A stretch of DNA of 49,168 bases from IMG/VR virus record IMGVR_UViG_3300030107_004118, positions 3,987 to 53,154 of that record; one strand, 5' to 3'. Position 1 is the stretch's first letter. Every line of letters begins with the position of its first letter. Of the stretch, positions 8,596 through 40,070 are shown in pieces. This stretch comes from a virus. The translations under genes were made by a program, and so were the position numbers. The notes under the pieces were generated by a model, which did no database searches, was not told where the DNA came from, and saw only the letters and a list, made by a program, of their open reading frames with translations.

Positions 8596-11500
8596 TTATA
8601 ACTCCACGAGCCACCATCCTCTGTAATTGGATGGTATAGTTCCTGTTTCTGTTCCATCTTTTGCTCCAGCGAATACGAACCCAAATCCAGCATTTCTAGT
8701 CTGGACAATCATTTCACCACCACCATATGCACTAGCAAGACCACCAGCAAGTGTTCCAGTAGCATCACCTTGCATTTGTACACCAACTGGTGCACGAACG
8801 ATTAATGATGTAGAGTATGATAGATTACCTCCTAGGTCAATCATTCTAATCATATCACCAGTTTCTGCATCATCTGGTAACGTAAATATTGCTGTAGCAG
8901 CAATAGCAACAAAGTAATTCTTACCAGTTTCAAGTGTTGCGTCAGAAGATTTGAACTCCCAGTTAAGTCCACCATTCTTACCCCAGTATCTATTAACACC
9001 AAATGCATCAATAGCAGCATCCTGACGTATTCTGAATAGTCTATCACTAGCGTTACCAAGACCATTAATTTCTAATGCCTTAGTATTATCTGCTGATGTA
9101 CGTGCCTGAGAAAGACTGTTAATAGTAACTTGACCACCATTAACTGTTAGATCACCAGTACCGATTGCAGATCCAGCAACACCAATGCGTGTATCACCAG
9201 TCTGTGCATCTACATGCAACTTAGCAGTAGAAGCATCACCGAATTGAATTCCAGTAGTACCACTGAATACAGAGAAGTCATCATCTATTTGTAAGTGACC
9301 AGAGATCTCAAGATTACCAGTATCTACCTGCAAGTAAGCAGACATCTTCGCATCGTCAGAAGAACCTACTGTACCATCATTCTGTACTCTTAAGTTACCA
9401 GCTATCCACTGATTACCTCCCTTATCTATGATTGCTTTAGGAGCAGCCTCAGTACCAATACCAACGACTGTGAACTTACCATCACTATCGATAGTTAGTC
9501 TAGTATTAGAAGTTGGTTGACCATTAATAATCCTAAACTGATTATCAGTAGAATTAGTTGATGCATCACCTGTTAGATTAATACTAAAGTCTTGAGTACC
9601 AAGTATAGTAGAATCTACACCACCAAAGACAGAATCAATTACGAAACGATCTTGCTGTGCACCATTATTAACACTAAACTTCTCAGCATTAGTATCATTA
9701 ACAGCAGTAATCCTAACAAATTCACCAGTACATGTAGGTGTATTAGCACCATTTAATCTTAGGTAATCACCAACCTTAAACTGTCCACCAAACTCAGCAA
9801 GTGATACAAGATCAGCACTAAAGTTGAGGATAGCAGATCCAATACTACCTGATATTGGAACAGCACCACCACCAGGAGAAAGAGATAGATTAAATCTCGT
9901 CTTATTATTACCAGTATCATTAACTGCGTTTACAATGAAGTAAGTGTCTGTAGTAGTAACTCCTATAATACTACCAACATTGCTGAACTTAACTGCGTCA
10001 CCTGTTCCTAAGTCATTAAGAGGAACTTCAAGTGTATCCGCATTGTTTACAAGATTAGATAAAGTAGGAGTTGTAGAAGTCTGTGGTACTCTACCAATTA
10101 GGTGAGTAGCAGCATTAGATCTCTCAAGCTTGTATATAACAGCATTATCTGCATGTATTGCTACAGTTGTGCAATCTATACCTCTATTAACTGGAACTAT
10201 CCTTGTATTAGCATCAGGACCAGGTGAGACAACCTCAACCAATTCTGTTCCTATGATAAGGATATCACCAATTGCTATTCCTCTGACGTTATTAACTGGT
10301 AGTCTATTATATTCAGCATCACCTGAATTAGCTGTCCATTGAGTTGTACCAGTACCAGTATCAACTAAGGTATTCTGTAATGTAATACCAGTAGATGTTC
10401 CAGGAGTACCACCAACCTGTACAGGTGATCCACCTTCAGATGTAGCAACCTGGAATGAACTACCAGTACTATTAATAACCCAGTATGGTGTACTTGTACT
10501 AATACCACCACCAGAAAGACCAGTAATATCAGTAAATCTAACTACATTACCATTTAAGAAATAGTTCTCATTTACAGAAATAACTCCATTAGCTGCAACA
10601 CTAGTAATAACTTGGAAACTATCAATATCTTCAACATATTTGTAGAAGTCAACATTGAGGTTTTGTAAACTACCAGGAGCATGAGCTATCTGTGCTGTAT
10701 TGAGTTGTTGTCTATCAACTGTAACAGTTCCACTGTTAGATCCACCATGCATGGTTACATCACCATACATGTCTGTATCACCATTAACTTGTAAAGAGTT
10801 TCTAACCTCTGTAGTACCAGCAACACCACCGATAGCAAACTGTGATGCTCTAGTTGCAAAGTTTACAATAGAACCAGCACCAGCTCTAGTGAATAGATTG
10901 ATAGTCTGTGAATTAGACTGTAGATCACCACCATTAACATCTAAGTCACCATCAAGTATGGTCTGAGCATTCTTAATTGTGAATGTAGAGTTAGCAGTAT
11001 TACTAAACGCACCACCAAATGTAAGTACTGACTTATTTGTAGCACCATCAGCAACAGTACCAACATTGACTGTTGAATCAGTAGATGATGTGTGTATATT
11101 TAATGTTGTATCAGTAGATGATGTACCAACATTGATTGTCTGAGCTGCTGTTGCATCCTCAAAGAGGTTTACAGTAGTCGCAAGACCACCAACATTTAAT
11201 GTGGTTGCATTAGTATCAAGGACATTAAAGGTTGTTGCATTAGTAGTAATACTTCCACCATCAATGTTTACATTACCATCTATGTCTGCGTTAGCAATAT
11301 CATTACCAACACTTACTAAGTGTAATGCATTTGTTTCACCAGATCCTACCTTGATAGTAACTGTAGAATCTAAATCATCATCAGTTGCATTAATACCAAC
11401 TCTTGTTTCTAGAGTAGAAACTCTAAGTGTTGCTAAGTTATCTGATACTATTGAATCTCCACCAACTATCAATGCATCCTTGAGACCAGTCTCAGTCTTA

Positions 11501-14500
11501 GTTGTAGTTGCTTCAGTAGTATAGCTATTGATCGCCTTACCACTAATGAATGTATTACCAACAACATCCAAGTTTGCTCTTGGTTCTTGCTGATTGTAAA
11601 CTGTACCACTAGCAGTGTATGTTAGGAATCCATGCTCATGAGCATTATGAGCAGTACGAGCAATGGTGTTAATACCAAGCTTGTACTTACCAATTGTGCC
11701 TGTTTCAGTTCTAATTGCTTCAGAACCTATTACACCAGTCTCTTTCCAATTCTCATCAGATCTTTCAAGAATAACACTTGACTCAGTAGCCCAAGTAAAT
11801 GTAGTTGTAGGGATGGAATTGTTAACAACAAACTCACAGAACCCATCATCTGCACCTGTTTGATCTGCCTTGGTAATTATCCACTTACCGTTAACACGTG
11901 GATCGGAGAACCCTTTAATAAGGATTGTCTTACCTACACCAATATTAATACCATTATCACCATTAGTAAATGCACCAGACCAATGAAGTTGAACAGTATT
12001 ACTACCGTTAGCCAAAAGCTGAAGAACAGATGTGTTTGGTATTATTGAGTAGTAGTTAGCATATATCCAAGCAAGAGAACCACTCTGCTCAATTGACTTA
12101 CCCTTATAAAGAATATCACCTGCTTGTGCATTAGCATCTACATCAGAAGAATTGTAATATCTTACAAACTGCTCAGGACTAAATGTTGTTGACTGATCAG
12201 GTGTTCTGTTGCTAGGCTCATTCTCACTAAATGAGAAGTTTGTACGTATACTATACTCTTGACCTGGGAATAATCCTGTACCTCGACCTTTTATGTGATA
12301 AACAGCCGTGGAAATTTTATTCCTACTAAGGGTCATATCACCCTTATTTCTATCAGACCAATTACCCCTAGTTAATGTATTATCTTCTCCACCACCATCA
12401 CTTCTTGGGTTAGAAAGAATGGTAAGAGCAGGTGATTCAGTTGGTGGTTGAGTACTAATAATTACTCTGTTATTAAAGTAACCAATACCTTCAACAGTAA
12501 TCTTATCCTTAAATGTAACAGGAGTATCAAATGATGTTACCAGTGTAGTGATAATATCTGTATCATCTTCAGATGACTCAAGTTGAGCTTTCTCTAGGAA
12601 TGTCTCTTCACCAGTGATAGCATCAATCTTCTTGTTACCAATGTATAGGTCACCATTACTGTTAAGACCAGTGTAGAATACAATACCACCATCCTCACGT
12701 TTTGCCTGTGAGTAGTAGTCTTGGAACTCAGAAAGTATAACTTCCTGTCTTGCTGGTAAACCAGATGAATAGTTACCTGGACCAAAACCAAGGTATTCAA
12801 ACGTATGGTTACCAGATCTAGCAATAGATGGTCTTCTTAGTTCAATGTATACCTTCTGATCATGAACAGATTCAGTATCACCAGCAATAGGAATCTGTCT
12901 CTGTTCTGAACCAGCAGTAGCATTACCTGTAACAGCTTGGAGTGTATTACCAGCGTTAGCATAGGTGTATCCACTAAAGTATCCTGACTGAGTTAGATCT
13001 TCAATTGCTTCCTTAGTCATTGACCTCTTATAGTCATTGACCCAGACAAGACCATGTGTATAGTTGTCTGCGAAACTATTAGCAGCAGGTGGATCAGTAA
13101 TTAATGAATCCTTAGTACCATTGTTGTCTATAACCTGATACCATAGAGGATCATTCTTATAGTCTAGTGGATATAGTGAGGAGATAGGCTGAGAGAACTT
13201 AAAGTTCTGGAAGTTAGCACCTACACCAGCACCACGAGGTAGAGGTGAAATGTTACCACGTACAGCAGTTAGATAGTAGATACCATCTTGCTGTCCAGCA
13301 ACACGTTCCTGAATAATATCAGAGTCAAAGATATAGAATGTATCATCAATGTCTTTAACATCTTCAACAGAAACAATCTTATAGGTATTACCAACTGTAT
13401 CATTCAATGTATCACCAGGTGTAACTGTGAATACATTAGAATCACCAACAACATAAAGGTTATTACCTTTACTATCTCTACCACCATTAACATCTGCCTG
13501 TTGATCAGCATAAACAGCACCTTGCTGGAATCTTGTGGCAGTTAATGGATTGTATGTTGGTCTAGCACTTACATCCTTAAGGATGATATAATGCTTAGTA
13601 TCAGCACCTACAACTACCGAGAAGTATGCATGTAGATAACCAAATCCACTGCTACCACCAGTCCACTCTACTATGTTAGTAGGAGCAGATGCAGTCTTAC
13701 TTGTAGCAAATGCACCTGCTTGTGGAGCATTAATCTCTACAGTATGGAATACTGTATTCTTTAAGTTTGGTGCGTTAGTATCGTCAACTGTATGGTCAAA
13801 TACAGTAAGCTCTAGTTTCTTAGAACCTACTGGACCTATCTGCCTAGCAGAACGAATACTGAATCGAATATAGTTATCAGTATTAACAATGCGAGGATGG
13901 TTATCTGGATCATATATGTTCTTAGCGGTTAATGTACCAGCCTGCACTGCTGCATCAAAGTCAACCTTGGACATACCAAGTGTCTCAGTTGAGTTAGCAG
14001 ACTGTGGGTTACGGAAATCAGCGATATCAGGAGATCCACCAACTTTTTCAAGTACTATATTCTGTGGAAGTAGATTACGCTTAGTATCAGTACGGATCTT
14101 CATTACAAATCCGTTGTTTGGTTGCCTTACAGAACCAGGATATTCTTTTGGTTGTACATATCTTAAACGATAGATACGATCATTAGCAACACGATCATCC
14201 TTAAGACGAGTGTAGTAAGAATCTGTTGTCTGTGTCTGACCTGAAGAAGGATCATAATCACTCTCTTGAATCCTAGTGATTATATTATCATCAAGACTAG
14301 TCTCATCCTTAAGATTCAAGTACCACAATCCATCAGGTATTGGTGGAACTCTAGATGCAGCAGTATCAACAAACGTAGGATCAAATCTCATTGGTGATGT
14401 ACGCTTGTTAGCGAAGACATACCAATATTGATCTGGATTATTAACTAAAACTACCTCTGGTGCACCAGCTATAGCATCCTGTGCAGTAGCAAATATCTTA

Positions 14501-17500
14501 AATGTATCTTCTGTTTCATACCTTACATAATACTCTTGGGTAGGAGATACCAGAGCTCCACCACCACCAGAAAGTGTAGGTAATGTAGGAGCAGTACCAC
14601 CATCAGATCCTTCTTTTCTAAAGAAGACTTTCTGTAACTCAGTAGAAGGTATACCATTTGTTGGCTTATCAAATACATGAGCAACCTCTGTCTTGAATAT
14701 AGTACCACTTGATCCATCAAAGGTAACTTTATATTCATGTAGATCATATGCTGAATCTAATACGTACTGTTCGATTAGAATCTCAACATCCTCATCAAGA
14801 GATTCTGTCTCAGGTGAGTAGATGTAAATACCAGCGGCTGCTGCCTCTGCTGACTCAGCAAGCATTAACTTAGTTTGGTCACCACCATCAAATATACCAC
14901 TGTAAACAGCACCATCATTGTAGTTGAATGGTTGTGTGTTACGACCTGGAGCAATTACATAATATTTTCTATTTGGTTGGAACCCAAGTGGTAGACGAAC
15001 GTCTCTCTCATCTGGAGTCTTACCTGCTTTAGCACGAGCAACCAGTCTTACTGGTGTTCCAGTCTCAAACTTATGTGGGTTAGTACCACCAGCATCAACA
15101 GTGAATAGAGTTGCACGTTGAGCAAACTGATCACTAGATGTAGATGGATTTAACCTTGCAATAGAATTTTGTGATGGAGATGTCTTAGTTGTAGCAGCGA
15201 ACTGTCCAGCATTATTAGAGTATGCTGTAACACCATCAGTGGTAGCACTAACAAAGGTATGTGCATAAGCACCACCAACCTGTACACCAAACTGCTTACC
15301 ACGTACAAATGTATGTGCGTAGTTACCACCACTAGCAACAGAAGAACCAAGAGCAGACACAAACAAATGTGCTGTAGTGTTAGAAGAAGTACCAACATCT
15401 ACTGTAATTGTAGTACCTGTTGTTGCTAGTATAGGTAATGATGTATCACTTGCAGGGTCAGTTGTACGTGGATAAGTATGGTTACTACCATGACTATCCT
15501 CTCCACAAGTAAAGGTTAATGAGTTATCAGCAATCTTAACAGACTCACCAGCAAGTGTAATACCATCAGCAACAGCACTTACAAATGTATGTGGATAGTC
15601 ACCACCAGTCTCAACTGCAGCTCTTGTTATGCAATTTGCAGTAGCAGAAACAAATGTATGAGCAGTAGAGTTAGTAGATGGGATGCTAGTTAATACATTA
15701 ATAGTAAATCCATTCTGTGTAACTGAATCAATCTTAACCCACTTACCACTAATAGGATCACTAGGTCTAGGATATACATGGTTAGTACCATTATTATCCT
15801 CCATGCAAGTAAAGGTTAAACTATTATCTGCAATCTTGATGAAGTCACCTGCAGCAAATCCGTGATTAGCAAGAGTAAATGTTATTACACCTGTTTGTGG
15901 ATCATATCCAGCAGCAGTTGGAGTGTAACCAGTATTAGGTACAAATGTATGTGTTGTAGTATTTGTAGATGGTATAGTGGTTAGAACATTAACTGTAATT
16001 GTTGTTGCAGTTACAGCAGTAATGTTTACAGCAGTATCAGATGCTGGATCAGATGATCTTGGATATGAATGTTCACTACCACCACCATCTTGAGCACATG
16101 TAAATGTTAAGGAGTTTGAAGCTAACTTAATAGATGTACCAACAGTCAAACTATGACTACCGATAGTCATCTCCATATCACCTGTTGTTGGGTTGTAATC
16201 AACAGCAGTAGGAATGAAACCAACTAGAGGAGATGTACCAACATTAACATCAAATGTACTGTCTGTTACACCAACAACATTCATCCACTTCTTACTATAT
16301 GGATCTGTTGATCTAGGATATGATTTCTGTGCTGTATTACCATCCATACCACAGCTCATTATCAAGGAATCATCTGCAATTCTTACTCTATCTCCTAGAG
16401 AGAATCCATGATTAGCAACAGTAGTTGTTAAGATACCAGTTACAGGATTGTATGAAGCATCTGTAGCTGTGTGAGTACTTGGTCCACTAAGAGTGTGACT
16501 ACCAATAGTAAGAGTCATCTCACCAGTGGTAGGAGTATAAGTAGCAGCAGTTGGTGTGAAAGTAATCTCTGGTGTTGCACCAACAGCAACAGTTATCTTA
16601 CCAGTCTGTTTCTTAACAGCACCAGCAGATGCTGATACAAAGTTATGAATAGATGTATCTGGTGAAGGTGATACATTAATCAAGAATGTATCATTAGTAG
16701 CAGTAGTAATCTCTAACCACTCTGTTGAAGCTTCGTCAGTTGCTCTAGGATATGTGTGATTACTTGCGTTGTTGTCCTTAGCACATGTAAATGTTAATGA
16801 ATCATTTACAAGCTTAACCATACTACCAACTCTAGTAACAGAGTTGCTACCAGCAGAAACAAACCTATGCTCAGATGTATCAGAAGAAATTCCAATCTGA
16901 ACATCAAATGTATTACCTGTTATATTCTGTATAGGTAGTTTCTTACCTGCAGCAGGGTCAGTTGCTCTAGGATAACTATGATTGGTAGCATGACTATCCT
17001 TAGCACATGTAAATGTAATAGAGTTGTTAGCAAGGATAACACTAGTACCAGCAGCAAACTGATGATTAGCAACAGTAAGAGTTAATATACCTGTAGCTGG
17101 ATCAAAACCAGCATTAGTTGGTGTATGTGTGCTACGTGCTTTAAATCCATGACCAGCAACAGTAAGTACAAGCTCACCGTTTACTGGATTATAATCTGCA
17201 GCAGTCGGTGTATGATCTGTCTCCTCTACATCAGTAACTTCAACCTTAGTGTTGTATACTGGATCAGATGTTCTAGGATATGAGTGCTCAGTTTGGTTAC
17301 CATCTTGTGTACAAGTAAATACTAAAGCATCTTTCTCTAACTGTAATGTATTTCCTTGAGATATATTATGAGCACCAAGACTTAATACTAGATTACCAGT
17401 AGCAGGGTCATATGTAGCATCACTAACATTATGTCCTACAAGCGGTGTTGTACCAACATTGATAGTAACAGTATCAGCAGTTATATTAGTGATATCTCTG

Positions 17501-20500
17501 ATAGCATTCTTATATGCTGGATCTCCTACACGTGGATAAGCATGGTTTGATCCATGATTGTCCATACCACAACTGAATGTTAATCCATTCTGATTAATAC
17601 CAATTTTATTCTGAGCAGATAAACCATGATTAGCCATGGTCAAAGTCAAATCACCAGTAGCACCATCATATGTTGCACCACTAGGTGTATATGTTCCTAA
17701 TGCTTGAGATGTAATTCCAGCAGTATCAATACCATACTCTATTATCTGGAATAGAGTAGCCATTGCTGAAATAACATCAGCACAATATACTGCATTAACA
17801 GGACTAGGATCAGTTGTAATTGATGTATCTTTTGTCTGATTGTAAGATGTAACAACACCTGCTCTAGGACTATAAGTTACATTCTGAATAATTGAATTAG
17901 CAATCTCTTTTGCTTTTCTGAAAGTATAGATTGATTGCTCTTCTTCTCCAGCAAGATCAGCACCTACAACATATAGATTAGCAGCATCCCAAACCTTATT
18001 GTTTGATCCAAACTTAATGTTATATGCAACTGCCTCGATAACATCTACAACGTCATCGTAGCAATTAACATTACCACCTGGAACTGTGTGTTGAGGATAC
18101 TCAATATTCATATCCTTAACTGCTACATCAGCAATGTATTCCTTGTTAGCAAGTAACAAGTCATGTGCATCAGCAAAACGATCACCAACTGGGTTAATAC
18201 CTTGGTTAATGATTGTCTTGATGTTATTCATCAAGGTTGCTATAGCCTGTGCAGTATCATTACACTGAGGGTATACTGTATCCTGAGTAAGATTTGTATC
18301 TACATCACCTTCTATAGATGAGTATACACCTTTACGAACACCATTCTGATCTTCTAATGAGAACCATAGGTTAGCAGATGAATTAGATCCAGTAGCATTT
18401 GTAGCAGCACCATCGAAAGGTGTACTTCTTTGTCCAGCAACAACACTACCAAGCTCAATAGTTGTTGGGTTAACAATACTCTTGATGTAGGTATCAGTAG
18501 GAATATTTGCTGTTGTTAAAGTATTAGGATCAGCAGTTGTATTATTAGCATTAACTCCTGTATATTCCTGAACCTTCATACCAATAACAAGTCCAACAGT
18601 TGTAGGAACTGTTACTAAGGAAGAGTTATTAGAAATAGAACATCCTGTCTGTAAGAATGTCCAGTTACGAATAGATGCAATAGCAAGATCACGAGCATAC
18701 TCAAAACCTTCAATAGTTTCAAACTTCTCGTTATCAATGTAGTTTAATTCACCAGCACTGAAGTATGACTCAGCAGCCTGAATAGTATTGATGTTACCAC
18801 CAAGACGTAAATCAGATATAACAGCATCAAGAACTAATCCAACGTCTCTCTGACACTTACTGATAATGATATTCTTACTGAGAAGAGCTGGATACTTCTT
18901 AGTGATGAATCCATAAGTCTCTTCTTGGATGAGTTCTTTATTCTCCTCTATTCTGTTAGCAGCATCTTGTGACTTATTATCTACAACTACTGTAGTAGGA
19001 TTAAGGATCTGTAACGATGATGGATAGAAATTATAACCAGAAGGTGATAATGTAGCATTATAGATTGCATCAGGTACAGGAGATTTACCAGAAGCAGCAG
19101 AATATGGATCTAACTCAACATATATCTTCTCATTACTCTTAGCACCTATTCTATATCCATTAAGAGTAGCAGCAGGACGCTTCTTAGGATCTGTAACATT
19201 ATCACTACCACCAAAGTAAAGTCTTGTATTAGTATCACGTGATGCCTGTACATCCCACGTATAGTAATCAACTCTATCTTCGTTAGCAGTTGAATCAATT
19301 AATTTTTCTGGTGGTATGATAGAATCAATGTATCCACCTTTGTCCTGTGCAAAGGAATATCCTTTATGTCCCTTAGCATGGAGTGATGTATTACCGAAGT
19401 TACTGTTAGAGTTGGTGATACTCATATCACCACCACTTTCCATTAGGAAGTGATCAGCAAAACCAACAGCGAAGATACTAACACACTGAATGAATGCATC
19501 ATTGATTGCCTTAATGTGGCAGTTTCTCCAATCATCCTTCCAATATGCATCACCCTTAGTGTGATAAGGTACTGTTGCAAATGCATCAGAAAGAGATGCT
19601 TGGTTCCAAGTATTTGTAAACTTATCGTAACGGATGAATGCTCTATCGTCTTTCTGTAGAGATACACCAGTATACTGAGCACAGACCATAGACTTGAAGC
19701 CTGTGACCTTACTACCATCTGCTAATAGACCACAGATACCCCATGTAGACCTGATAGACAGGTTAAACATGTATGGAGAAGCAGATTCAACTGAGTCTAC
19801 TTCTGCCTGTACATAAGCACCATTAGAGAGACCATTAGCAGTAGAATATGTTTGATTATTCTGTAAGTTTAAAGATGTTACAGTACCAGGTAGAGTAAAG
19901 CTAAACCTTCTTCTATTAAGTGGGTCTATACTAGCAACATTAAATGTTCCATTCAATGCTTCATCTAAACCATTATTTTGTACAGCAAAGAACTGGTTCT
20001 TAATATAACCATGAGCAATCTTTGTTGTTACATTAACAGTAATCTCACCTTGTGGAGTCGAATCAACTACCTGTAATGATTCAATAGATCTTAAGTCAGA
20101 TAGAGGACCAACAATACGAGTCTCACTTACATTACCACTAAACTCATTCTGATCATCAATAGTAGGTTGATACTGTGCAAAAGATTGAGCAACCTTCTTA
20201 TAGTAAAGTTCTAGTTCAGGTTTCTCAGCATATTGGAATACAGTAATCTTGTGGTGTGAGTACTCAGGTATAGCAAGGTTAGCATTATCATTCTTACGAT
20301 AATAAACCTTACCAACACCATCAGTAGTATCAAATAAAGGAGACTTAGTAGTAACGTCTCCATCCTTGATTGTAAACTGCCAGATGTAAGCACCACCAGT
20401 TACATTGAAGATAGAAGTTCTACCTTGCTCTTTATCAGCAGGATCAGGCACATATAAAGGACGTATATGTGTTCTACGAAGATCATAACCAATTAAAGAA

Positions 20501-20904
20501 CAGCCACGAGGAACAATACAACCACCCTCAGTACCATTAAACTTGTATAGGACGTTATCAGGATTAGACAGATCCACAACCGAAGAATCTGTCCAAGCAT
20601 TAGTATACTGATCAAATCCAAAAACAGGAGTTCCAGATGTTGAAACTAATCCAGGTCTATTATCAATATAGTGGTCACCAGGCATAAGCATGATGGTGAA
20701 CTCATCAAATCGATCATTATCGATTCCAGGAGCATAAGAATATCTTGCTACCTCGATAAATGCCCTTTGAATGGTTACAAATGGGCGGTTTGGTGAATTA
20801 CCTCTATTGTCTAATTCATCAGAAGCATTGAAATCATCTGGTGAGACATACAAATATCTACCAGTTTTACTGGAGATTAAGTTATCTAATCTTGTTAATG
20901 GCAT
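8596..20904 (-). CDS. Giant tail-fibre/virion structural protein, 4,102 residues
   Basis: One uninterrupted reading frame of 12.3 kb takes a quarter of the window. The N-terminus (RPFVTIQRAFIEVARYSYAP and PGDHYIDNRPG, about 35-90) resembles the head of large cyanophage fibre proteins with beta-helix character. Residues about 1,070-1,900 hold tandem repeats with a TC..D....H.YPR..DP core (separate entry). Residues about 3,130-3,390 have short beta-strand repeats such as ATTLNVGG and TINVGTSSTD, typical of fibre shafts. There is no signal peptide, peptidase or membrane segment. It precedes the three collar proteins, so it probably forms the long fibre that carries or contacts them. The exact role is inferred from context. 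Confidence 0.85.
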   Translation of the reverse strand: MPLTRLDNLISSKTGRYLYVSPDDFNASDELDNRGNSPNRPFVTIQRAFIEVARYSYAPGIDNDRFDEFTIMLMPGDHYIDNRPGLVSTSGTPVFGFDQYTNAWTDSSVVDLSNPDNVLYKFNGTEGGCIVPRGCSLIGYDLRRTHIRPLYVPDPADKEQGRTSIFNVTGGAYIWQFTIKDGDVTTKSPLFDTTDGVGKVYYRKNDNANLAIPEYSHHKITVFQYAEKPELELYYKKVAQSFAQYQPTIDDQNEFSGNVSETRIVGPLSDLRSIESLQVVDSTPQGEITVNVTTKIAHGYIKNQFFAVQNNGLDEALNGTFNVASIDPLNRRRFSFTLPGTVTSLNLQNNQTYSTANGLSNGAYVQAEVDSVESASPYMFNLSIRSTWGICGLLADGSKVTGFKSMVCAQYTGVSLQKDDRAFIRYDKFTNTWNQASLSDAFATVPYHTKGDAYWKDDWRNCHIKAINDAFIQCVSIFAVGFADHFLMESGGDMSITNSNSNFGNTSLHAKGHKGYSFAQDKGGYIDSIIPPEKLIDSTANEDRVDYYTWDVQASRDTNTRLYFGGSDNVTDPKKRPAATLNGYRIGAKSNEKIYVELDPYSAASGKSPVPDAIYNATLSPSGYNFYPSSLQILNPTTVVVDNKSQDAANRIEENKELIQEETYGFITKKYPALLSKNIIISKCQRDVGLVLDAVISDLRLGGNINTIQAAESYFSAGELNYIDNEKFETIEGFEYARDLAIASIRNWTFLQTGCSISNNSSLVTVPTTVGLVIGMKVQEYTGVNANNTTADPNTLTTANIPTDTYIKSIVNPTTIELGSVVAGQRSTPFDGAATNATGSNSSANLWFSLEDQNGVRKGVYSSIEGDVDTNLTQDTVYPQCNDTAQAIATLMNNIKTIINQGINPVGDRFADAHDLLLANKEYIADVAVKDMNIEYPQHTVPGGNVNCYDDVVDVIEAVAYNIKFGSNNKVWDAANLYVVGADLAGEEEQSIYTFRKAKEIANSIIQNVTYSPRAGVVTSYNQTKDTSITTDPSPVNAVYCADVISAMATLFQIIEYGIDTAGITSQALGTYTPSGATYDGATGDLTLTMANHGLSAQNKIGINQNGLTFSCGMDNHGSNHAYPRVGDPAYKNAIRDITNITADTVTINVGTTPLVGHNVSDATYDPATGNLVLSLGAHNISQGNTLQLEKDALVFTCTQDGNQTEHSYPRTSDPVYNTKVEVTDVEETDHTPTAADYNPVNGELVLTVAGHGFKARSTHTPTNAGFDPATGILTLTVANHQFAAGTSVILANNSITFTCAKDSHATNHSYPRATDPAAGKKLPIQNITGNTFDVQIGISSDTSEHRFVSAGSNSVTRVGSMVKLVNDSLTFTCAKDNNASNHTYPRATDEASTEWLEITTATNDTFLINVSPSPDTSIHNFVSASAGAVKKQTGKITVAVGATPEITFTPTAATYTPTTGEMTLTIGSHTLSGPSTHTATDASYNPVTGILTTTVANHGFSLGDRVRIADDSLIMSCGMDGNTAQKSYPRSTDPYSKKWMNVVGVTDSTFDVNVGTSPLVGFIPTAVDYNPTTGDMEMTIGSHSLTVGTSIKLASNSLTFTCAQDGGGSEHSYPRSSDPASDTAVNITAVTATTITVNVLTTIPSTNTTTHTFVPNTGYTPTAAGYDPQTGVITFTLANHGFAAGDFIKIADNSLTFTCMEDNNGTNHVYPRPSDPISGKWVKIDSVTQNGFTINVLTSIPSTNSTAHTFVSATANCITRAAVETGGDYPHTFVSAVADGITLAGESVKIADNSLTFTCGEDSHGSNHTYPRTTDPASDTSLPILATTGTTITVDVGTSSNTTAHLFVSALGSSVASGGNYAHTFVRGKQFGVQVGGAYAHTFVSATTDGVTAYSNNAGQFAATTKTSPSQNSIARLNPSTSSDQFAQRATLFTVDAGGTNPHKFETGTPVRLVARAKAGKTPDERDVRLPLGFQPNRKYYVIAPGRNTQPFNYNDGAVYSGIFDGGDQTKLMLAESAEAAAAGIYIYSPETESLDEDVEILIEQYVLDSAYDLHEYKVTFDGSSGTIFKTEVAHVFDKPTNGIPSTELQKVFFRKEGSDGGTAPTLPTLSGGGGALVSPTQEYYVRYETEDTFKIFATAQDAIAGAPEVVLVNNPDQYWYVFANKRTSPMRFDPTFVDTAASRVPPIPDGLWYLNLKDETSLDDNIITRIQESDYDPSSGQTQTTDSYYTRLKDDRVANDRIYRLRYVQPKEYPGSVRQPNNGFVMKIRTDTKRNLLPQNIVLEKVGGSPDIADFRNPQSANSTETLGMSKVDFDAAVQAGTLTAKNIYDPDNHPRIVNTDNYIRFSIRSARQIGPVGSKKLELTVFDHTVDDTNAPNLKNTVFHTVEINAPQAGAFATSKTASAPTNIVEWTGGSSGFGYLHAYFSVVVGADTKHYIILKDVSARPTYNPLTATRFQQGAVYADQQADVNGGRDSKGNNLYVVGDSNVFTVTPGDTLNDTVGNTYKIVSVEDVKDIDDTFYIFDSDIIQERVAGQQDGIYYLTAVRGNISPLPRGAGVGANFQNFKFSQPISSLYPLDYKNDPLWYQVIDNNGTKDSLITDPPAANSFADNYTHGLVWVNDYKRSMTKEAIEDLTQSGYFSGYTYANAGNTLQAVTGNATAGSEQRQIPIAGDTESVHDQKVYIELRRPSIARSGNHTFEYLGFGPGNYSSGLPARQEVILSEFQDYYSQAKREDGGIVFYTGLNSNGDLYIGNKKIDAITGEETFLEKAQLESSEDDTDIITTLVTSFDTPVTFKDKITVEGIGYFNNRVIISTQPPTESPALTILSNPRSDGGGEDNTLTRGNWSDRNKGDMTLSRNKISTAVYHIKGRGTGLFPGQEYSIRTNFSFSENEPSNRTPDQSTTFSPEQFVRYYNSSDVDANAQAGDILYKGKSIEQSGSLAWIYANYYSIIPNTSVLQLLANGSNTVQLHWSGAFTNGDNGINIGVGKTILIKGFSDPRVNGKWIITKADQTGADDGFCEFVVNNSIPTTTFTWATESSVILERSDENWKETGVIGSEAIRTETGTIGKYKLGINTIARTAHNAHEHGFLTYTASGTVYNQQEPRANLDVVGNTFISGKAINSYTTEATTTKTETGLKDALIVGGDSIVSDNLATLRVSTLETRVGINATDDDLDSTVTIKVGSGETNALHLVSVGNDIANADIDGNVNIDGGSITTNATTFNVLDTNATTLNVGGLATTVNLFEDATAAQTINVGTSSTDTTLNIHTSSTDSTVNVGTVADGATNKSVLTFGGAFSNTANSTFTIKNAQTILDGDLDVNGGDLQSNSQTINLFTRAGAGSIVNFATRASQFAIGGVAGTTEVRNSLQVNGDTDMYGDVTMHGGSNSGTVTVDRQQLNTAQIAHAPGSLQNLNVDFYKYVEDIDSFQVITSVAANGVISVNENYFLNGNVVRFTDITGLSGGGISTSTPYWVINSTGSSFQVATSEGGSPVQVGGTPGTSTGITLQNTLVDTGTGTTQWTANSGDAEYNRLPVNNVRGIAIGDILIIGTELVEVVSPGPDANTRIVPVNRGIDCTTVAIHADNAVIYKLERSNAATHLIGRVPQTSTTPTLSNLVNNADTLEVPLNDLGTGDAVKFSNVGSIIGVTTTDTYFIVNAVNDTGNNKTRFNLSLSPGGGAVPISGSIGSAILNFSADLVSLAEFGGQFKVGDYLRLNGANTPTCTGEFVRITAVNDTNAEKFSVNNGAQQDRFVIDSVFGGVDSTILGTQDFSINLTGDASTNSTDNQFRIINGQPTSNTRLTIDSDGKFTVVGIGTEAAPKAIIDKGGNQWIAGNLRVQNDGTVGSSDDAKMSAYLQVDTGNLEISGHLQIDDDFSVFSGTTGIQFGDASTAKLHVDAQTGDTRIGVAGSAIGTGDLTVNGGQVTINSLSQARTSADNTKALEINGLGNASDRLFRIRQDAAIDAFGVNRYWGKNGGLNWEFKSSDATLETGKNYFVAIAATAIFTLPDDAETGDMIRMIDLGGNLSYSTSLIVRAPVGVQMQGDATGTLAGGLASAYGGGEMIVQTRNAGFGFVFAGAKDGTETGTIPSNYRGWWLVEL
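15210..17700 (-). repeat. Tandem protein repeats in the giant fibre gene
   Basis: In the translated minus strand, about 830 residues repeat a beta-rich unit of roughly 75-140 residues. Each unit reads approximately P-T-x-A-x-Y-x-P-x-T-G, then L-T-x-x-x-x-x-H-x-[FL], then [FS]-[TS]-C-x-x-D, then H-x-YPR-x-x-D-P, then a short T-[IF]-x-[VI]-N-V strand and AHTFVSA. I count eight copies of the TC..D....H.YPR core, near 17,560, 17,260, 16,960, 16,730, 16,300, 16,050, 15,750 and 15,450. One copy has YPRATDE and one has KSYPR instead of HxYPR. The repeats diverge clearly at DNA level, so they are old or under diversifying exchange. Confidence 0.8.
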
Positions 20905-21095: not shown

Positions 21096-21671
21096 CTATT
21101 TAGATGGTGTAAAGTAGTTAAAGTTTATCACACACTTAAATCTTGCGTCAAGTTGACTAACACCTCTGTGTTTTAATGATGATGGAAAAGTAATAAATCT
21201 GTTAGCACGACACTCTACTTTAGAACCATCTTCAAATTCGGTATACCCATCACATGTATTCATATAAAAGATACCTGTGGTCATACTATCACAATCATTA
21301 TCAGTATGAAACTCACTATAATAACGGTCAACACCACTTACTTCATTACTAACCTTTTTGGACTCATCCATCCATACATTAAGTCCCACCTTTAAAGGTT
21401 CAAGATTAGCTTTAATTCTGTAGATACCAATAAGACTCAATCTGGACAATATTGGTAGCATTAAAGGAAATTTTTCAGATCTTGTAAATATACGAGCATC
21501 ACTATTCGTCTCATAAAAAACATGAGTGAACTGATAATTGTTAAAATCATCTTCTTCTACCTCTTTTACCTTCTGCTCATTATAATACCAAGGTATACCA
21601 CCAAAAAAGACTTGCTCTCTAAGTTGACCAAACTCTACATTAGTTAAGAAATTATCATGTAAATTTATCAT
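21096..21671 (-). CDS. 2OG-Fe(II) oxygenase-like protein, 191 residues
   Basis: Motifs in order are FHTDND (H122 and D124 as metal ligands), GIFYMNTCDGYTEF (the strand before the core), LKHRG (distal H168) and an arginine at R177 in DARFKCVINF. This is the 2-oxoglutarate/Fe(II) oxygenase order, and the length fits small phage members. The N-terminal half (WYYNEQ, THVFYETNSDARIF) resembles the substrate-lid region of phage oxygenases. It is the last of three oxygenase genes joined by 4-base ATGA overlaps (21668-21671 and 22255-22258), indicating coupled translation. The substrate is unknown. Confidence 0.8.
   Translation of the reverse strand: MINLHDNFLTNVEFGQLREQVFFGGIPWYYNEQKVKEVEEDDFNNYQFTHVFYETNSDARIFTRSEKFPLMLPILSRLSLIGIYRIKANLEPLKVGLNVWMDESKKVSNEVSGVDRYYSEFHTDNDCDSMTTGIFYMNTCDGYTEFEDGSKVECRANRFITFPSSLKHRGVSQLDARFKCVINFNYFTPSK
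21097..21103 (-). promoter_or_regulatory. Late-promoter-like CTAAATA box
   Basis: The minus strand reads CTAAATA about 20 bases before the ATG at 21077, inside the last codons of the oxygenase gene. T4-type late promoters are TATAAATA; the same CTAAATA variant recurs in front of several units in this window. It would start a transcript carrying the 43-residue gene, the giant fibre and the collar genes. Confidence 0.5.
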
Positions 21672-22258
21672 TGGTGTAAATATGCAGATATAATGTACTT
21701 TTTACCTTTATTGGGAGTTACTCCTCTATGGATGCAATTCCATGTGGATGGAAACATAACCAGTTTACCAGTAGAAGGTACAATCTTCCTACCACTAATG
21801 AATTCGGTCTCCCCACCGTCAACATCATTCAAATAAAATAACATAGCGATCATTCTAGGAGATTTTCTATCTATCACAAAATCATCATGCCAATGAAAAT
21901 ATCCACCTGGTTCATATGCCTTCACATTATAACCATGATCATCAAACTTTGCATTATAAAATGGATTAGGGGTCGGATCAAGCTTATTGAAAATTTCAAA
22001 GCAATGATCTATGTAGTTCTGTATATTCTCACTAACACTCTTAGAAATTATATCATCCAAATCTTTCCAATCTTCCAGATCTGTTATATACAAGTCTATA
22101 GAAGTCTTTAAACTGTTTTTAACTATTCTACTACTATTATCAGAATTACCTATAAGACCAAGAGCTTTACGATCATCACCTTCAAATTTTTCTATTATTT
22201 GTTCACATACTTCCTTACTTAAAGCAGTTTCATTAACATAGATAAAATCCTCCATCAT
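21668..22258 (-). CDS. Prolyl 4-hydroxylase-like 2OG-Fe(II) oxygenase, 196 residues
   Basis: This is a textbook member: YFHWHDDF supplies H124 and D126, FYLNDVDGGETEF is the conserved strand before the core, MFPSTWNCIHRGVTP gives the distal H177, and KKYIISAYLH supplies the basic co-substrate residue. The N-terminal half (residues 1-110) is helical and begins DFIYVNETALSKEVCEQIIE, the usual opening of these enzymes. It is the middle gene of the three-oxygenase cluster, overlapping both neighbours by four bases. It probably hydroxylates a protein; the target is not visible. Confidence 0.9.
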   Translation of the reverse strand: MMEDFIYVNETALSKEVCEQIIEKFEGDDRKALGLIGNSDNSSRIVKNSLKTSIDLYITDLEDWKDLDDIISKSVSENIQNYIDHCFEIFNKLDPTPNPFYNAKFDDHGYNVKAYEPGGYFHWHDDFVIDRKSPRMIAMLFYLNDVDGGETEFISGRKIVPSTGKLVMFPSTWNCIHRGVTPNKGKKYIISAYLHQ

Positions 22259-22806
22259 CTCATCATATCCATTGCTTCTCTGTCCATTTCAAGATTCATA
22301 GAAAGAACAATTCTATTAGTGTTTGTAGGAAGTACCTGATGTTTTACTATACCAGGAAATATAACAAGAGCACCATTCTTAGGTACTATAGATTTACCAC
22401 AAAACTTAAGAGGAGAAGATCCTTCTTCACAATCAACAAAATAAACAGCAGCAAAAACTGATGGCCAATGATCATGTTCTGCAGTATGATTCCCCTTCTC
22501 ATACATCATAGCCCACATATTATAAACCATATAAGGTTCTGGTGGTTTATGACCAAAATAATCTTCTGATATAAAAGAACATGCACTACTAGTAAACATA
22601 CACAAATCATCAAAATAATTTGTCTCTTTATGTAAACTATAACTAGAATGCCATCCTGTATTCTGTTTCATCAGATCATGATTCTGAGGATTCTCTTCCC
22701 TTATCTTCAGAATAGATTCTTTAAATTGTTTGTTCTGCTGAATATCAGGATACATCACATACCAAAAAGGTATGTCTTGTCCTGATATAAAATCTTTTTT
22801 CAGCAT
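22255..22806 (-). CDS. Putative 2OG-Fe(II) oxygenase of the PF13759 type
   Basis: The 183-residue protein differs from its two neighbours. It has the HTAEHDHWPSVFAAVYFVDC pattern (metal ligands around H111 to H113), GALVIFPGIVKHQV with distal H156, and R165 followed by IVLSMNLE. This fits the putative 2OG-Fe(II) oxygenase family of small, often phage or marine bacterial, proteins. It is the first gene of the oxygenase cluster and starts 24 bases after the tmRNA terminator. No clear ribosome-binding site precedes the ATG. The reaction and substrate are unknown. Confidence 0.8.
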   Translation of the reverse strand: MLKKDFISGQDIPFWYVMYPDIQQNKQFKESILKIREENPQNHDLMKQNTGWHSSYSLHKETNYFDDLCMFTSSACSFISEDYFGHKPPEPYMVYNMWAMMYEKGNHTAEHDHWPSVFAAVYFVDCEEGSSPLKFCGKSIVPKNGALVIFPGIVKHQVLPTNTNRIVLSMNLEMDREAMDMMR

Positions 22807-22829
22807 TTTTTACCAGAAAAAAATTTACG

Positions 22830-22851
22830 AAAAAGGGGGAATCTCACCCCC
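22830..22851 (-). terminator. Rho-independent terminator of the tmRNA unit
   Basis: On the minus strand a five-base GGGGG/CCCCC stem with a seven-base loop (TGAGATT) is followed by TTTTT. It lies directly after the 3' end of the tmRNA coding piece and ends 24 bases before the next ATG. Confidence 0.85.
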
Positions 22852-23105
22852 AATTAGTCATTTGGGTAACAAGGCTGACTTAACCCCGATCACTCCTTAA
22901 ACAGTCGCTAGTTCAGCGATGCGAGTGAATGCTACGATGTTATTCGCAGCAGGTGTATCTGTTTTAGCAGATGTTGTGTGCTTATCCAAGCAGGTTTCAG
23001 TCCCGATCCTTATACCCTGTCGAAGCCATGGCATCCCCTAGCTATGGAGATGAGGGGAGTCGAACCCCTGTCCAGAATGTAGGTGTCGTCACCTATCCTC
23101 AAAAG
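22852..23105 (-). ncRNA. ssrA: Permuted two-piece tmRNA
   Basis: Read on the minus strand, the acceptor piece comes first. It ends with a T arm (AGGGG, TTCGACT, CCCCT) and the acceptor strand CATCTCC plus discriminator A at 23045. Six bases later, at 23038, the coding piece starts GGGGATG, which pairs with CATCTCC over seven bases (one G-U), followed by the tmRNA signature GGCTTCGACAGGG. This 3'-piece-before-5'-piece order is the permuted arrangement known from cyanobacteria. The tag frame is at 22897-22947: GCG resume codon, ANNIVAFTRIAELATV, TAA within a TCGCT/AGCGA hairpin. The 5' end of the acceptor piece (near 23105) and the 3' end of the coding piece are estimates. No CCA is encoded. 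tmRNA rescues stalled ribosomes together with SmpB, which is not in the window. Confidence 0.92.
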
Positions 23106-23109
23106 AGGA

Positions 23110-23181
23110 TGCCATCAGAGGGATTTGAACCCCCGACCTTGGCTTTACAAAAGCCCTGCACTACCACTGTGCTATGATGGC
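23110..23181 (-). tRNA. tRNA-Thr (anticodon UGU)
   Basis: The minus strand folds as a standard tRNA. The acceptor GCCATCA pairs with TGATGGC; the D arm is GCAC-AGTGGTA-GTGC; the anticodon arm GGGCT-TTTGTAA-AGCCA reads TGT at the anticodon (the outermost anticodon-stem pair is a mismatch); the T arm is GGGGG-TTCAAAT-CCCTC. The discriminator is A, and CCA is not encoded. It lies about 5 bases upstream of the tmRNA acceptor piece and is probably co-transcribed with it. Its anticodon reads ACA, a codon favoured in AT-rich phage genes. Confidence 0.95.
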
Positions 23182-23183
23182 AA

Positions 23184-23283: not shown

Positions 23284-23817
23284 CTATGGTTGTAGTATAT
23301 CATGCCTTCGATAAAATTTCAAGTGCCCCCACTTAGCACCCCAGACCTGTTGATCTGTCTCTAAGTCGAAACCCTTATCGAGAACCCAATAAGAATCGTC
23401 AGTCAATTCTATTTCATTAAGAAGATATGTCTCTTTACCCTTGTACATGACTGTACAGTCTGAGCTTGCTGTCTTACCGTGATAGACAACACCAGACCTT
23501 ACGAATTTAATATCACACCCCAATCTCCTCTGCAGAGGAGCTTCTTTTAGTTTATTTAGATTTGAACACAGAACATATTGTCTAGGATCATCTATGGAAT
23601 AATTCTGAACAATATAACCGTCATCAACTGTAATAACTTTTAAGATGAACTGTCTGTATGGATCTTTAGGACAATAATCATAACACTGCTCACCATAAAA
23701 TATCCCATCGCTTAACTTAACGTGGGATATATTAATATGAGCATAACGACTTGGATCCTTCATTGCTTGATGCTGGTTACCAAAGTGACCAACTAAGCAA
23801 TCTTCAAAGCTTTTCAT
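23284..23817 (-). CDS. cpeT: CpeT-like phycobilin lyase family protein
   Basis: The 177-residue protein follows the CpeT/CpcT pattern in order: HFGNQHQAMKDPSRYAHINI near the N-terminus, FYGEQCYDYCPKDPYRQFIL, IVQNYSIDDPRQY, LGCDIKF..SG.VYHGKT, KGKETYLLNEIEL, and the C-terminal LDKGFDLETDQQVWGAKWG. Host CpeT proteins act in phycoerythrin bilin attachment, and CpeT genes are known cyanophage accessory genes. The ATG at 23817 is preferred over an upstream TTG at 23832. The start overlaps the preceding gene by 14 bases. With heme oxygenase elsewhere in the window it points to phage control of bilin metabolism. Confidence 0.88.
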   Translation of the reverse strand: MKSFEDCLVGHFGNQHQAMKDPSRYAHINISHVKLSDGIFYGEQCYDYCPKDPYRQFILKVITVDDGYIVQNYSIDDPRQYVLCSNLNKLKEAPLQRRLGCDIKFVRSGVVYHGKTASSDCTVMYKGKETYLLNEIELTDDSYWVLDKGFDLETDQQVWGAKWGHLKFYRRHDILQP

Positions 23818-24085
23818 CAGGCATAGTTTCAACTGTGATCACAGGTACATCAAATAACAAAGGATGTATCTCTTCTTCTAGTAAATATTCTGAATTCTTT
23901 AAGATCTGTTCTTGAGTGAACTCTGGGTTCAGAGCACACTCAAATAATATCCATCTATCTTCTCGCTGGTCTCTGGTTAGTGGATCATATGTAAAGGGAG
24001 TATTCTCTATGAAATACATCTTTACTGGTGTTCCATCTAACCAGCAGTGTTTTATATTAACCCTGTAACCAGCGAACGCCATCAC
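23804..24085 (-). CDS. Hypothetical protein, 93 residues
   Basis: This small acidic protein begins FAGYRVNIKHCWLDGTPVKMYF and ends in EEEIHPLLFDVPVITVETMP. I see no known motif, signal or membrane helix. Two adjacent ATG codons are possible starts. It overlaps the CpeT-like gene by 14 bases, which suggests coupled expression with it. The function is unknown. Confidence 0.6.
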   Translation of the reverse strand: MMAFAGYRVNIKHCWLDGTPVKMYFIENTPFTYDPLTRDQREDRWILFECALNPEFTQEQILKNSEYLLEEEIHPLLFDVPVITVETMPDEKL

Positions 24086-38948: not shown

Positions 38949-39830
38949 TTAGTCTTCCTCTGCTAAACTTGCAAAGTAACTAAGTGCGTCATCATCACTT
39001 GTCTCCTTCTTGTTGAACTTAGGTGCAGAAGATGCTGCTACCTTCTCAACAGGTACTGGTTCAAACTCTTCCTCTTGTTGTCTCTGTACCACAGCAGGTG
39101 AACTGTTGAGAACTGTATTTAAACGAGTCTCTAGTTCCTCATATGTTTTGAACTGATCTTCAGCAGTGAATGCTGCTAAACTGTGTTCTTGTTTGTATGT
39201 TGCTTCTAGTTCAGCATCATCAGAGCTTAAAGCACTAACAGCATCGAACTCGGAACTATCATAGTTCCAGAAACCAGCAACAGTCTTGATCTTTAACTTA
39301 AAGTTTGCTCCTTCCCAGAAGTCAAACACATTTACAGGAGTCTCGTCTTGAAACTCTGGCTGCATTGCAGCCATTACCTTGTCGAAAATCTTCTTACCGA
39401 ACTTGTACAAGAATACCTTACCTTCATTTTCAGGGTTCTTAGGATCTTTAACAACGACAATGTTCGTGTAGTAAGTAAGCTTACGCTTCTGCTTACGAGC
39501 AATGTCCTTGTCTGATTCGTGACCACTATTCCACAACTTACGATTAACTTCACCAACAGGGTCTTTTTTGTTTTGTGTCGTTAAACTGTTTTCGATGTAC
39601 CAACCGCCAGGTCCTTGGAAAGCATGTGAATATAACTTTGCCCAAGGAAGGTCTTCACCTTCTGGGGGTGGGAGAAATCTGATAACAGCGTAACCATTAC
39701 CTGTATTATCTAACTCTGGTCTCCAGAACCTCTCGTCTTTACCGCCACCTGTTTGAGTGGACTTCTCTATCTCTTTCTGGAGAAAATCAAAATTTGCTTG
39801 AGATTTTCGTTTTAGATCTGCGAACGTCAT
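38949..39830 (-). CDS. Single-stranded DNA-binding protein gp32
   Basis: The 293-residue protein has the T4-type gp32 layout: N-terminal basic region (DLKRKSQANFDFLQKEI), core with RFWRPELDNTGNGYAVIRFL, PPEGEDLPWAKLYSHAF, YIENSLTT, KLTYYTNIVVVKDP, KVFLYKFGKKIFDKV, and an acidic tail (DDDALSYFASLAEED). It protects ssDNA and organises replication, repair and recombination. The cysteines of the T4 zinc-binding loop are absent here. It has its own promoter and a structured leader of about 235 bases, similar in principle to the autogenous control of T4 gene 32. Confidence 0.93.
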   Translation of the reverse strand: MTFADLKRKSQANFDFLQKEIEKSTQTGGGKDERFWRPELDNTGNGYAVIRFLPPPEGEDLPWAKLYSHAFQGPGGWYIENSLTTQNKKDPVGEVNRKLWNSGHESDKDIARKQKRKLTYYTNIVVVKDPKNPENEGKVFLYKFGKKIFDKVMAAMQPEFQDETPVNVFDFWEGANFKLKIKTVAGFWNYDSSEFDAVSALSSDDAELEATYKQEHSLAAFTAEDQFKTYEELETRLNTVLNSSPAVVQRQQEEEFEPVPVEKVAASSAPKFNKKETSDDDALSYFASLAEED

Positions 39831-40066
39831 ACGGATTTTTTTAGATTTAATTGGATTTTGTTTTTGGGGTGGGAGATAGGAATAATGTATACCTACAAGT
39901 ACAGGGCATTTCTACATAAGTAAATTTTTACTGTACTGCACGAGTCCTGTCTGGTTAAACAGTTCTGTTGTTCCCAACAGCGAGCACCACCTCTGACTCA
40001 TCACCTTAACTAGACCATTGCCAGCAAGTTTGTTCAGTCACTCCCGTATCAGGTAGCGAACCCGAT
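39831..40066 (-). promoter_or_regulatory. Structured 5' leader of gp32
   Basis: About 235 untranslated bases separate the promoter from the ATG. On the minus strand I see a hairpin at the very 5' side (TATC-G-GGT, loop TCGCT, ACC-T-GATA), a CTGTT/AACAG hairpin, and a GTACAG/CTGTAC long-range stem near the 3' half. T4 gp32 represses its own translation through a leader pseudoknot. A similar function is an inference; no pseudoknot was resolved. Confidence 0.5.
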
Positions 40067-40070
40067 ATAC

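Follow-up and report, generated by a model that had tools for sequence, protein, structure and literature searches.

A phage-borne permuted tmRNA with a probably relocated resume site and a changed tag end

The window analyzed here is a stretch of 49,168 nucleotides taken from a source record that is a 53-kb virus contig. It carries a permuted, two-piece tmRNA gene that spans roughly 22835-23109 in minus orientation, and ARAGORN (tmRNA*, 22806-23134, minus) and Rfam agree on it. The match to the cyanobacterial tmRNA family RF01851 (cyano_tmRNA) covers 22836-23126 on the minus strand with 136.2 bits (E 5.4e-37), exceeding the gathering score of 70, and a second Rfam family, RF04321, matches at the tmRNA with 68.6 bits. 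A preliminary description of this DNA had recognized a permuted two-piece tmRNA from its GGGGATG and CATCTCC ends, six bases apart, and had proposed a covariance model as a check; the RF01851 score, the ARAGORN call and the pairing of these ends at 7/7 positions bear it out. The extent given there, 22852-23105, has the correct locus but stops short of the closing hairpin and its run of T (22851-22830), and no strand was given; the gene lies on the minus strand. The features of the region are listed below, from upstream to downstream.

23294..23322, minus: promoter-like TTGAAA-17-TATACT with TG before the second hexamer, upstream of the tRNA-Thr
23107..23182, minus: tRNA-Thr (TGT), by ARAGORN; discriminator A at 23110 by its acceptor stem; CCA not encoded
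23039..~23109, minus: acceptor piece of the permuted tmRNA, its 3' tRNA half, by Rfam and stem pairing
23095-23110, minus: hairpin of the acceptor piece, whose outermost A is the tRNA-Thr discriminator
23082-23093, minus: P2 strand in the acceptor piece
23053-23069, minus: T arm in the acceptor piece
23039-23052, minus: acceptor strand (23046-23052), discriminator A (23045) and intervening TAGCTA (23039-23044)
22835..23038, minus: coding piece, from GGGGATG (23032-23038) to the hairpin and T-run, by Rfam and fold
22957..22972, minus: predicted resume hairpin AUCUG-CUAAAA-CAGAU, pairing -4 to +1 around the new resume codon
22948..22968, minus: phage-specific 21-nt in-frame insertion, AKTDTPA; borders ambiguous by one codon
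22897..22968, minus: tag reading frame AKTDTPAANNIVAFTRIAELATV plus stop (GCT 22966-22968, TAA 22897-22899)
22931..22950, minus: second predicted hairpin GCUGCGAU/AUCGUAGC, where hosts pair the resume codon, by MFE and centroid folds
22890..22928, minus: P5-like hairpin that encloses the tag frame's 3' half together with the Val codon GTT (22900-22902) and the stop
22830..22851, minus: terminal hairpin GGGGG...CCCCC plus TTTTT, the last tmRNA helix, terminator-like

The order of parts is that of a permuted tmRNA, with the acceptor piece followed by a short intervening sequence and then the coding piece. All seven pairs form between GGGGATG (23038-23032) and CATCTCC (23052-23046), G3·U70 included; the discriminator A (23045) and the 6-nt spacer TAGCTA (23044-23039) follow, ahead of GGGGATG, and CCA is absent from the tmRNA-encoded sequence at the acceptor end. 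A 7-bp acceptor stem with G3·U70 and a discriminator A constitutes alanine identity. All three elements are present in 78/78 parsed phage rows and 120/120 parsed host rows among the matches listed, where the window and L007 are a single locus that is counted once as a gene. The coding piece is more stable than its shuffles (MFE z-score -3.3), and four overlapping terminator-like calls fall at the end of the tmRNA, with one elsewhere in the stretch and 0.6 expected. The RNA resembles RF01851 in gene order, the G3·U70 acceptor stem, T arm, P2, P5 over the tag and the ANNIV core, but differs in a 21-nt insertion, a resume codon relocated under a hairpin, and a tag ending in ATV rather than AA. 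Judged from its sequence, it is probably a functional phage copy of the cyanobacterial type.

The neighboring genes are of T4-like and cyanophage type and encode a T4 baseplate protein, gp32, CpeT, a cyanophage OMP-like domain and baseplate hub proteins. The tRNA-Thr directly precedes the acceptor piece, with a spacer of 0, an arrangement shared with Sf-FS3; of the 127 related loci with upstream room, 65 have a tRNA-Thr immediately ahead of the tmRNA. The promoter-like site falls in the 3' end of a CpeT-like reading frame (23284-23832, minus), and the two such sites in the stretch are at chance level (1.7 expected from shuffles). No glutamine riboswitch matched in the window at the Rfam threshold. 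Immediately downstream of the tmRNA are two adjacent 2OG-Fe(II) oxygenase-like genes (21668-22258 and 22255-22806, both minus); Sf-FS3 also has oxygenase-type genes near its tmRNA, but on the upstream side. Elsewhere in the window, a manA RNA motif (Rfam RF01745, 158.8 bits; 39866-40067, minus) lies directly upstream of the gene for a gp32-like single-strand DNA-binding protein (38949-39830). A 4102-residue open reading frame occupies 8596-20904 (minus), and a part of it near 19311-19807 matches genes that other cyanophages have annotated as short tail fibre.

Similar tmRNA DNA was identified in Synechococcus phages Sf-FS3, S-CAM1, S-CAM3, S-SSM7 and S-SSM6a and in the marine virus AG-345-P14. 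Rfam confirmed the RF01851 family in five of these six named loci, and ARAGORN confirmed S-SSM6a. The comparison with host and phage tmRNA entries that the preliminary description had suggested thus finds the same RNA in named cyanophages and in many IMG/VR contigs. No tmRNA is annotated in the public stretches of named cyanophages that we inspected, and AG-345-P14 is without any annotation. Hypothetical proteins are annotated inside the tmRNAs of S-CAM1 (L003, 1474-1599), S-CAM3 (L004, 1459-1599), S-SSM7 (L005, 1504-1722) and S-SSM6a (L006, 1561-1722), and are probably spurious genes placed on an unannotated tmRNA.

For the wider comparison, a tag-blind pattern that asked for one T-arm type recovered 86 viral stretches, 10 of which gave no ARAGORN tag, and a viral scan with the host T arm recovered 5. 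Two further viral scans used tag codons, and their figures hold among the matches listed; because these scans recruited on tag patterns, figures for the tag-blind subset are given separately. ARAGORN on all phage and viral loci returned at least 142 permuted hits; an ANNIV-like tag was present in 136, and the six without one were dropped. The resulting phage set comprises at least 105 distinct genes and at least 44 distinct tags (counted from ANNIV), and some of its IMG/VR contigs may duplicate GenBank phages. The host set, at least 120 picocyanobacterial stretches found with one T-arm pattern, gave 118 hits and 113 distinct genes; the 80 host rows listed are mainly Prochlorococcus. One phage gene (L031) was left out of the tree and of the tag-fold, last-codon, resume-codon and spacing counts, so that 104 of 105 were used, and one host gene was left out of the last-codon and resume-codon counts (112 of 113 used). 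The tree has 128 rows and 213 columns with the tag columns removed, and was built by a quick method with SH-aLRT support only. It includes at most four genes per host tag (24 of 113) and a short row for L033. In this tree the sampled hosts form one clade, and the phage genes fall outside it. The searches also returned three very divergent viral tmRNAs (L317, L320 and L321), with tags ending in PSLV and without an N-terminal extension, and unrelated permuted tmRNAs with tags ending in LAA (ANDDVYALAA, ANDSAYRLAA) on viral contigs L107, L119, L121, L140, L155 and L164.

For the window, ARAGORN itself gives a tag, AKTDTPAANNIVAFTRIAELATV, that is longer than the one in the preliminary description, which began at ANNIV. 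A 21-nt in-frame insertion ahead of ANNIV is present in 95/104 phage genes among the matches listed, and in 52/58 genes of the tag-blind subset; extensions were selected by a rule (start at GCN, no in-frame stop, final Ala). An A occurs at -4 of the upstream GCN codon in 95/95 insertion-bearing phage genes, as it does at -4 of the resume codon in 9/9 insertion-free phage genes and in 112/112 host genes, all among the matches listed. In the same insertion genes, position -4 of the ANNIV codon is A in 1/95 and C or T in 93/95. We rejected ANNIV as the tag start on this comparison, and also a start one codon earlier, where A stands at -4 in only 31/95 (matches listed). Position -5 of the upstream codon is always C or T in the 95 insertion genes among the matches listed. 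The spacing between TTCGAC and the upstream codon was measurable in 75 of the 95 insertion genes (matches listed) and not in the other 20; it is 55-57 or 48-50 nt in 71 of these genes and 95 nt in the remaining 4. The spacing to the resume codon is 56-57 or 48-49 nt in the 9 insertion-free phage genes, and 57-59 nt in hosts among the matches listed.

These positions have counterparts in E. coli, as described in passages of two papers. A86, which corresponds to the -4 A, is nearly invariant and stacks on Tyr55 of SmpB; a pyrimidine there leaves no activity in a survival assay, and A86C with an altered tag resumes in the +1 frame (PMC2481249, PMC8363625). At the preceding base, U85C is tolerated and U85A is impaired (PMC2481249). 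The conserved -4 A and the matching spacing, together with the role of A86 in E. coli, make the upstream GCN very likely the resume codon. In the window, it is GCT 22968, not ANNIV, that combines a -4 A with an open, stop-terminated tag frame. Thus the window tag is very likely AKTDTPAANNIVAFTRIAELATV, of 23 residues, with resumption at GCT 22968-22966, 21 nt before ANNIV, and the earlier start is probably off by seven codons. The named cyanophages and AG-345-P14 have the same seven-codon extension. In four loci (L005, L016, L043 and L151) the tags reach 24 residues counted from ANNIV and have an extra in-frame, near-perfect hairpin of ~26 nt after the ANNIV codons.

The insertion folds as a stem around the new resume codon. 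Four to five base pairs are kept in 54/54 distinct regions, and 105 of 2000 shuffles have at least 4 bp at this hairpin. Stem variants are AGAU/AUCU, AUCU/AGAU and AGAC/GUC, and switches between them are few events. Covariation scored 0.338 in an alignment of 20 of the 54 regions, where five rows with a one-base longer loop were counted as broken; shuffled alignments gave 0.096 and slid ones at most 0.115. Only two pairs changed on both sides, which is not above shuffles (450/500 reach 2). The predicted pairing covers -4 to +1 in phages, whereas in hosts it covers the resume codon itself and leaves -5 to -1 open; in its predicted fold the window also retains a downstream hairpin at the ancestral place. 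As modeled, the phage hairpin pairs the bases that contact SmpB and could be a hindrance rather than a help. A helix at the resume site could block a ligand, according to a passage of PMC2481249, and a passage of PMC8363625 states that the E. coli hairpin U88-A100 may protect the resume codon. The idea of a hairpin-guarded resume codon is therefore not new.

The tag of the window ends GCG ACT GTT TAA, which gives ATV, as the preliminary description had read, and LATV as the last four residues. The C-terminus is thus hydrophobic and uncharged, as in ssrA-type tags, but lacks the Ala-Ala end. A C-terminal Ala-Ala is typical of these tags, although not strictly defining. The unusual end that had been pointed out is borne out, since host tags end in AA in 113/113 genes among the matches listed. 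Among the phage matches listed, the tag ends in AA in 28/105 genes (7/44 distinct tags) and in Val in 25/105 genes (13/44 distinct tags); the tag-blind subset has AA in 16/58 genes and Val in 18/58. Six distinct genes, that of the window included, share the exact end RIAELATV. The tags of the named cyanophages and AG-345-P14 end in ATA, VAA or VTA and that of the window in ATV; close relatives vary among ATA, VTA, VAA and VAV, so no single end is required. On the tree, terminal Val needs 7 changes, at least 5 of them forced by starred branches, a count that phage recombination could have inflated. The changed end is, on these sequences, a feature of the phage lineages. The last four residues are uncharged in 44/44 distinct phage tags, in which charged residues make up 37% of the middle positions (both among the matches listed). 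The uncharged end in all tags suggests that a degron is probably kept.

The final Val may instead have little to do with protein fate. It could be a by-product of the evolution of an RNA hairpin in a functional tmRNA, with little effect on tagged proteins, and we regard this, the leading alternative, as possible but doubtful. In the G[C/U]N codon that closes the tag, the first and second bases are usually paired, and a C-to-U change can leave a G·U pair; because the codon lies within the P5-like helix, Val can appear with no selection acting on the peptide. Consistent with this, 104/104 phage genes counted among the matches listed have G[C/T]N as their final codon, and of 43 folds predicted for distinct phage tags, 36, including that of the window, pair both the first and the second base of this codon. 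For the 13 Val tags, the predicted folds place the second-base U opposite G in 5 (that of the window included) and opposite A in 3, and leave this base unpaired in the remaining 5. In-frame hairpin insertions also enlarge tags elsewhere, e.g., in S-SSM7. Arguing the other way are the 5 Val tags with a predicted unpaired second base (L061, L159, L024, L091 and L318), and the hosts, which retain Ala in 113/113 genes (matches listed) although the second base is unpaired in 7/11 distinct-tag folds. In addition, published accounts of ssrA variants, in the passages available, report that a terminal Val affects turnover. Drift under RNA constraint could, on the predicted folds, be the source of Val in part of the phage family. 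The converse view, that the final A or V is due solely to selection on the peptide, was rejected as unproven, given that RNA pairing may limit the codon too.

We lean, with slightly better than even confidence, to ordinary trans-translation by the tmRNA of a T4-like cyanomyovirus with an attenuated, probably ClpXP-dependent tag. In this case, the tmRNA would be co-transcribed with the tRNA-Thr, and host tRNA-processing enzymes would cut the transcript into two pieces, after which a CCA tail would be added. Alanine would be loaded onto the tmRNA, and host SmpB would bring the charged RNA to ribosomes that had stalled on broken mRNA. We found no SmpB (PF01668) in 15 phage records, a set that includes L119 with its unrelated ALAA-type tmRNA, and no ClpP (PF00574) in 14 tmRNA-phage records, several of the records in each search being fragments; host factors would therefore be needed. 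Resumption at GCT 22968 would add the 23-residue tag. Its end, LATV in place of the host VAA, would still be a hydrophobic degron, but a weaker one, acted on more slowly and mainly by host ClpXP. Ribosomes would be kept cycling in infection, with a lowered proteolytic load.

The nearest published comparison is with the engineered ssrA variants AAV and ASV, which share a small residue and a C-terminal Val with the window tag and, in the passages available, show slower ClpXP-dependent degradation. These are laboratory variants of the E. coli tag, whereas ATV is natural, sits in another tag context and is likened to them by sequence. Degron strength in Synechocystis follows LVA > AAV > ASV (passage of PMC3446811, reporting Huang 2010), and in Salmonella AAV- and ASV-tagged eGFP, but not LVA-tagged, is insensitive on ClpXP deletion (passage of PMC11003136). 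ATV is nearest to ASV, so slower ClpXP-dependent turnover is predicted, and by this analogy virus-tagged proteins may be destroyed more slowly.

The preliminary description had proposed that the changed end alters the fate of tagged proteins, either by sparing phage products or by use of another protease. An altered fate is plausible given the slow degradation of the published AAV and ASV variants; for sparing or a protease switch we found no support. That the tag has ceased to mark proteins for proteolysis, so that rescued products are spared, is improbable. The departure from AA in 77/105 phage genes (matches listed) fits this idea, but a charged residue in the last four positions occurs in 0/44 distinct tags (matches listed), which fits a retained degron, and AAV and ASV variants remain degraded in bacteria in the passages available. 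Redirection of rescued proteins to another protease (host ClpC or FtsH, or a phage enzyme) is quite improbable. The sole point in its favor is that the C-terminus and the N-terminal extension are unlike the host tag. The ClpP search, the only protease search made, gave 0/14, some of those records being fragments, and in Salmonella AAV and ASV lean more on ClpXP than LVA does (passage of PMC11003136).

A decoy role, in which the RNA would titrate SmpB or charged tmRNA and thereby inhibit host trans-translation in the manner of the TLD-only form of mycobacteriophage DS6A, we consider highly improbable. A tRNA-like domain alone does inhibit tmRNA (Mao 2009, as cited in passages of PMC11915505 and PMC4131195), and the DS6A RNA is likewise a phage-borne derivative. 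The tag frame is absent there but kept here, and the coding piece, resume signal and open tag frame are preserved in the relatives examined despite several insertions.

Phage two-piece tmRNAs have already been published. In the Melnitz paper they account for 53 of 133 distinct phage tmRNAs, 50 of which came from samples of marine or aquatic origin, and AG-345-P14, a relative of the window, is named there (passages of PMC9004378). The same source considers riboswitch control and host transition, and suggests a role in maintaining the translation machinery or in recycling host proteins; the tag sequence and resume site are not discussed in those passages. In a survey from 2014, mycobacteriophages and phage G were the only phages listed (passage of PMC4131195). 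We found no description of the tag extension, relocated resume codon or Val end in cyanophages in the parts of the literature searched, within which the relocated resume codon and changed end are new.

As to why phages carry a tmRNA, the literature passages available offer suggestions only. Phage and host genes differ at both points that set the action of the tag, the resume site and the tag end. One tentative reading, which we hold less likely than its converse, is that the label was rebuilt twice, with a relocated resume codon that has a hairpin of its own, and with a recurrently evolved end containing Val or Thr that makes it a slow, ClpXP-only degron. If this is true, the phage would rescue ribosomes without the cost of rapidly destroying its own truncated products. 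The family supplies dozens of natural tag ends for the reading of degrons by cyanobacterial ClpXP.
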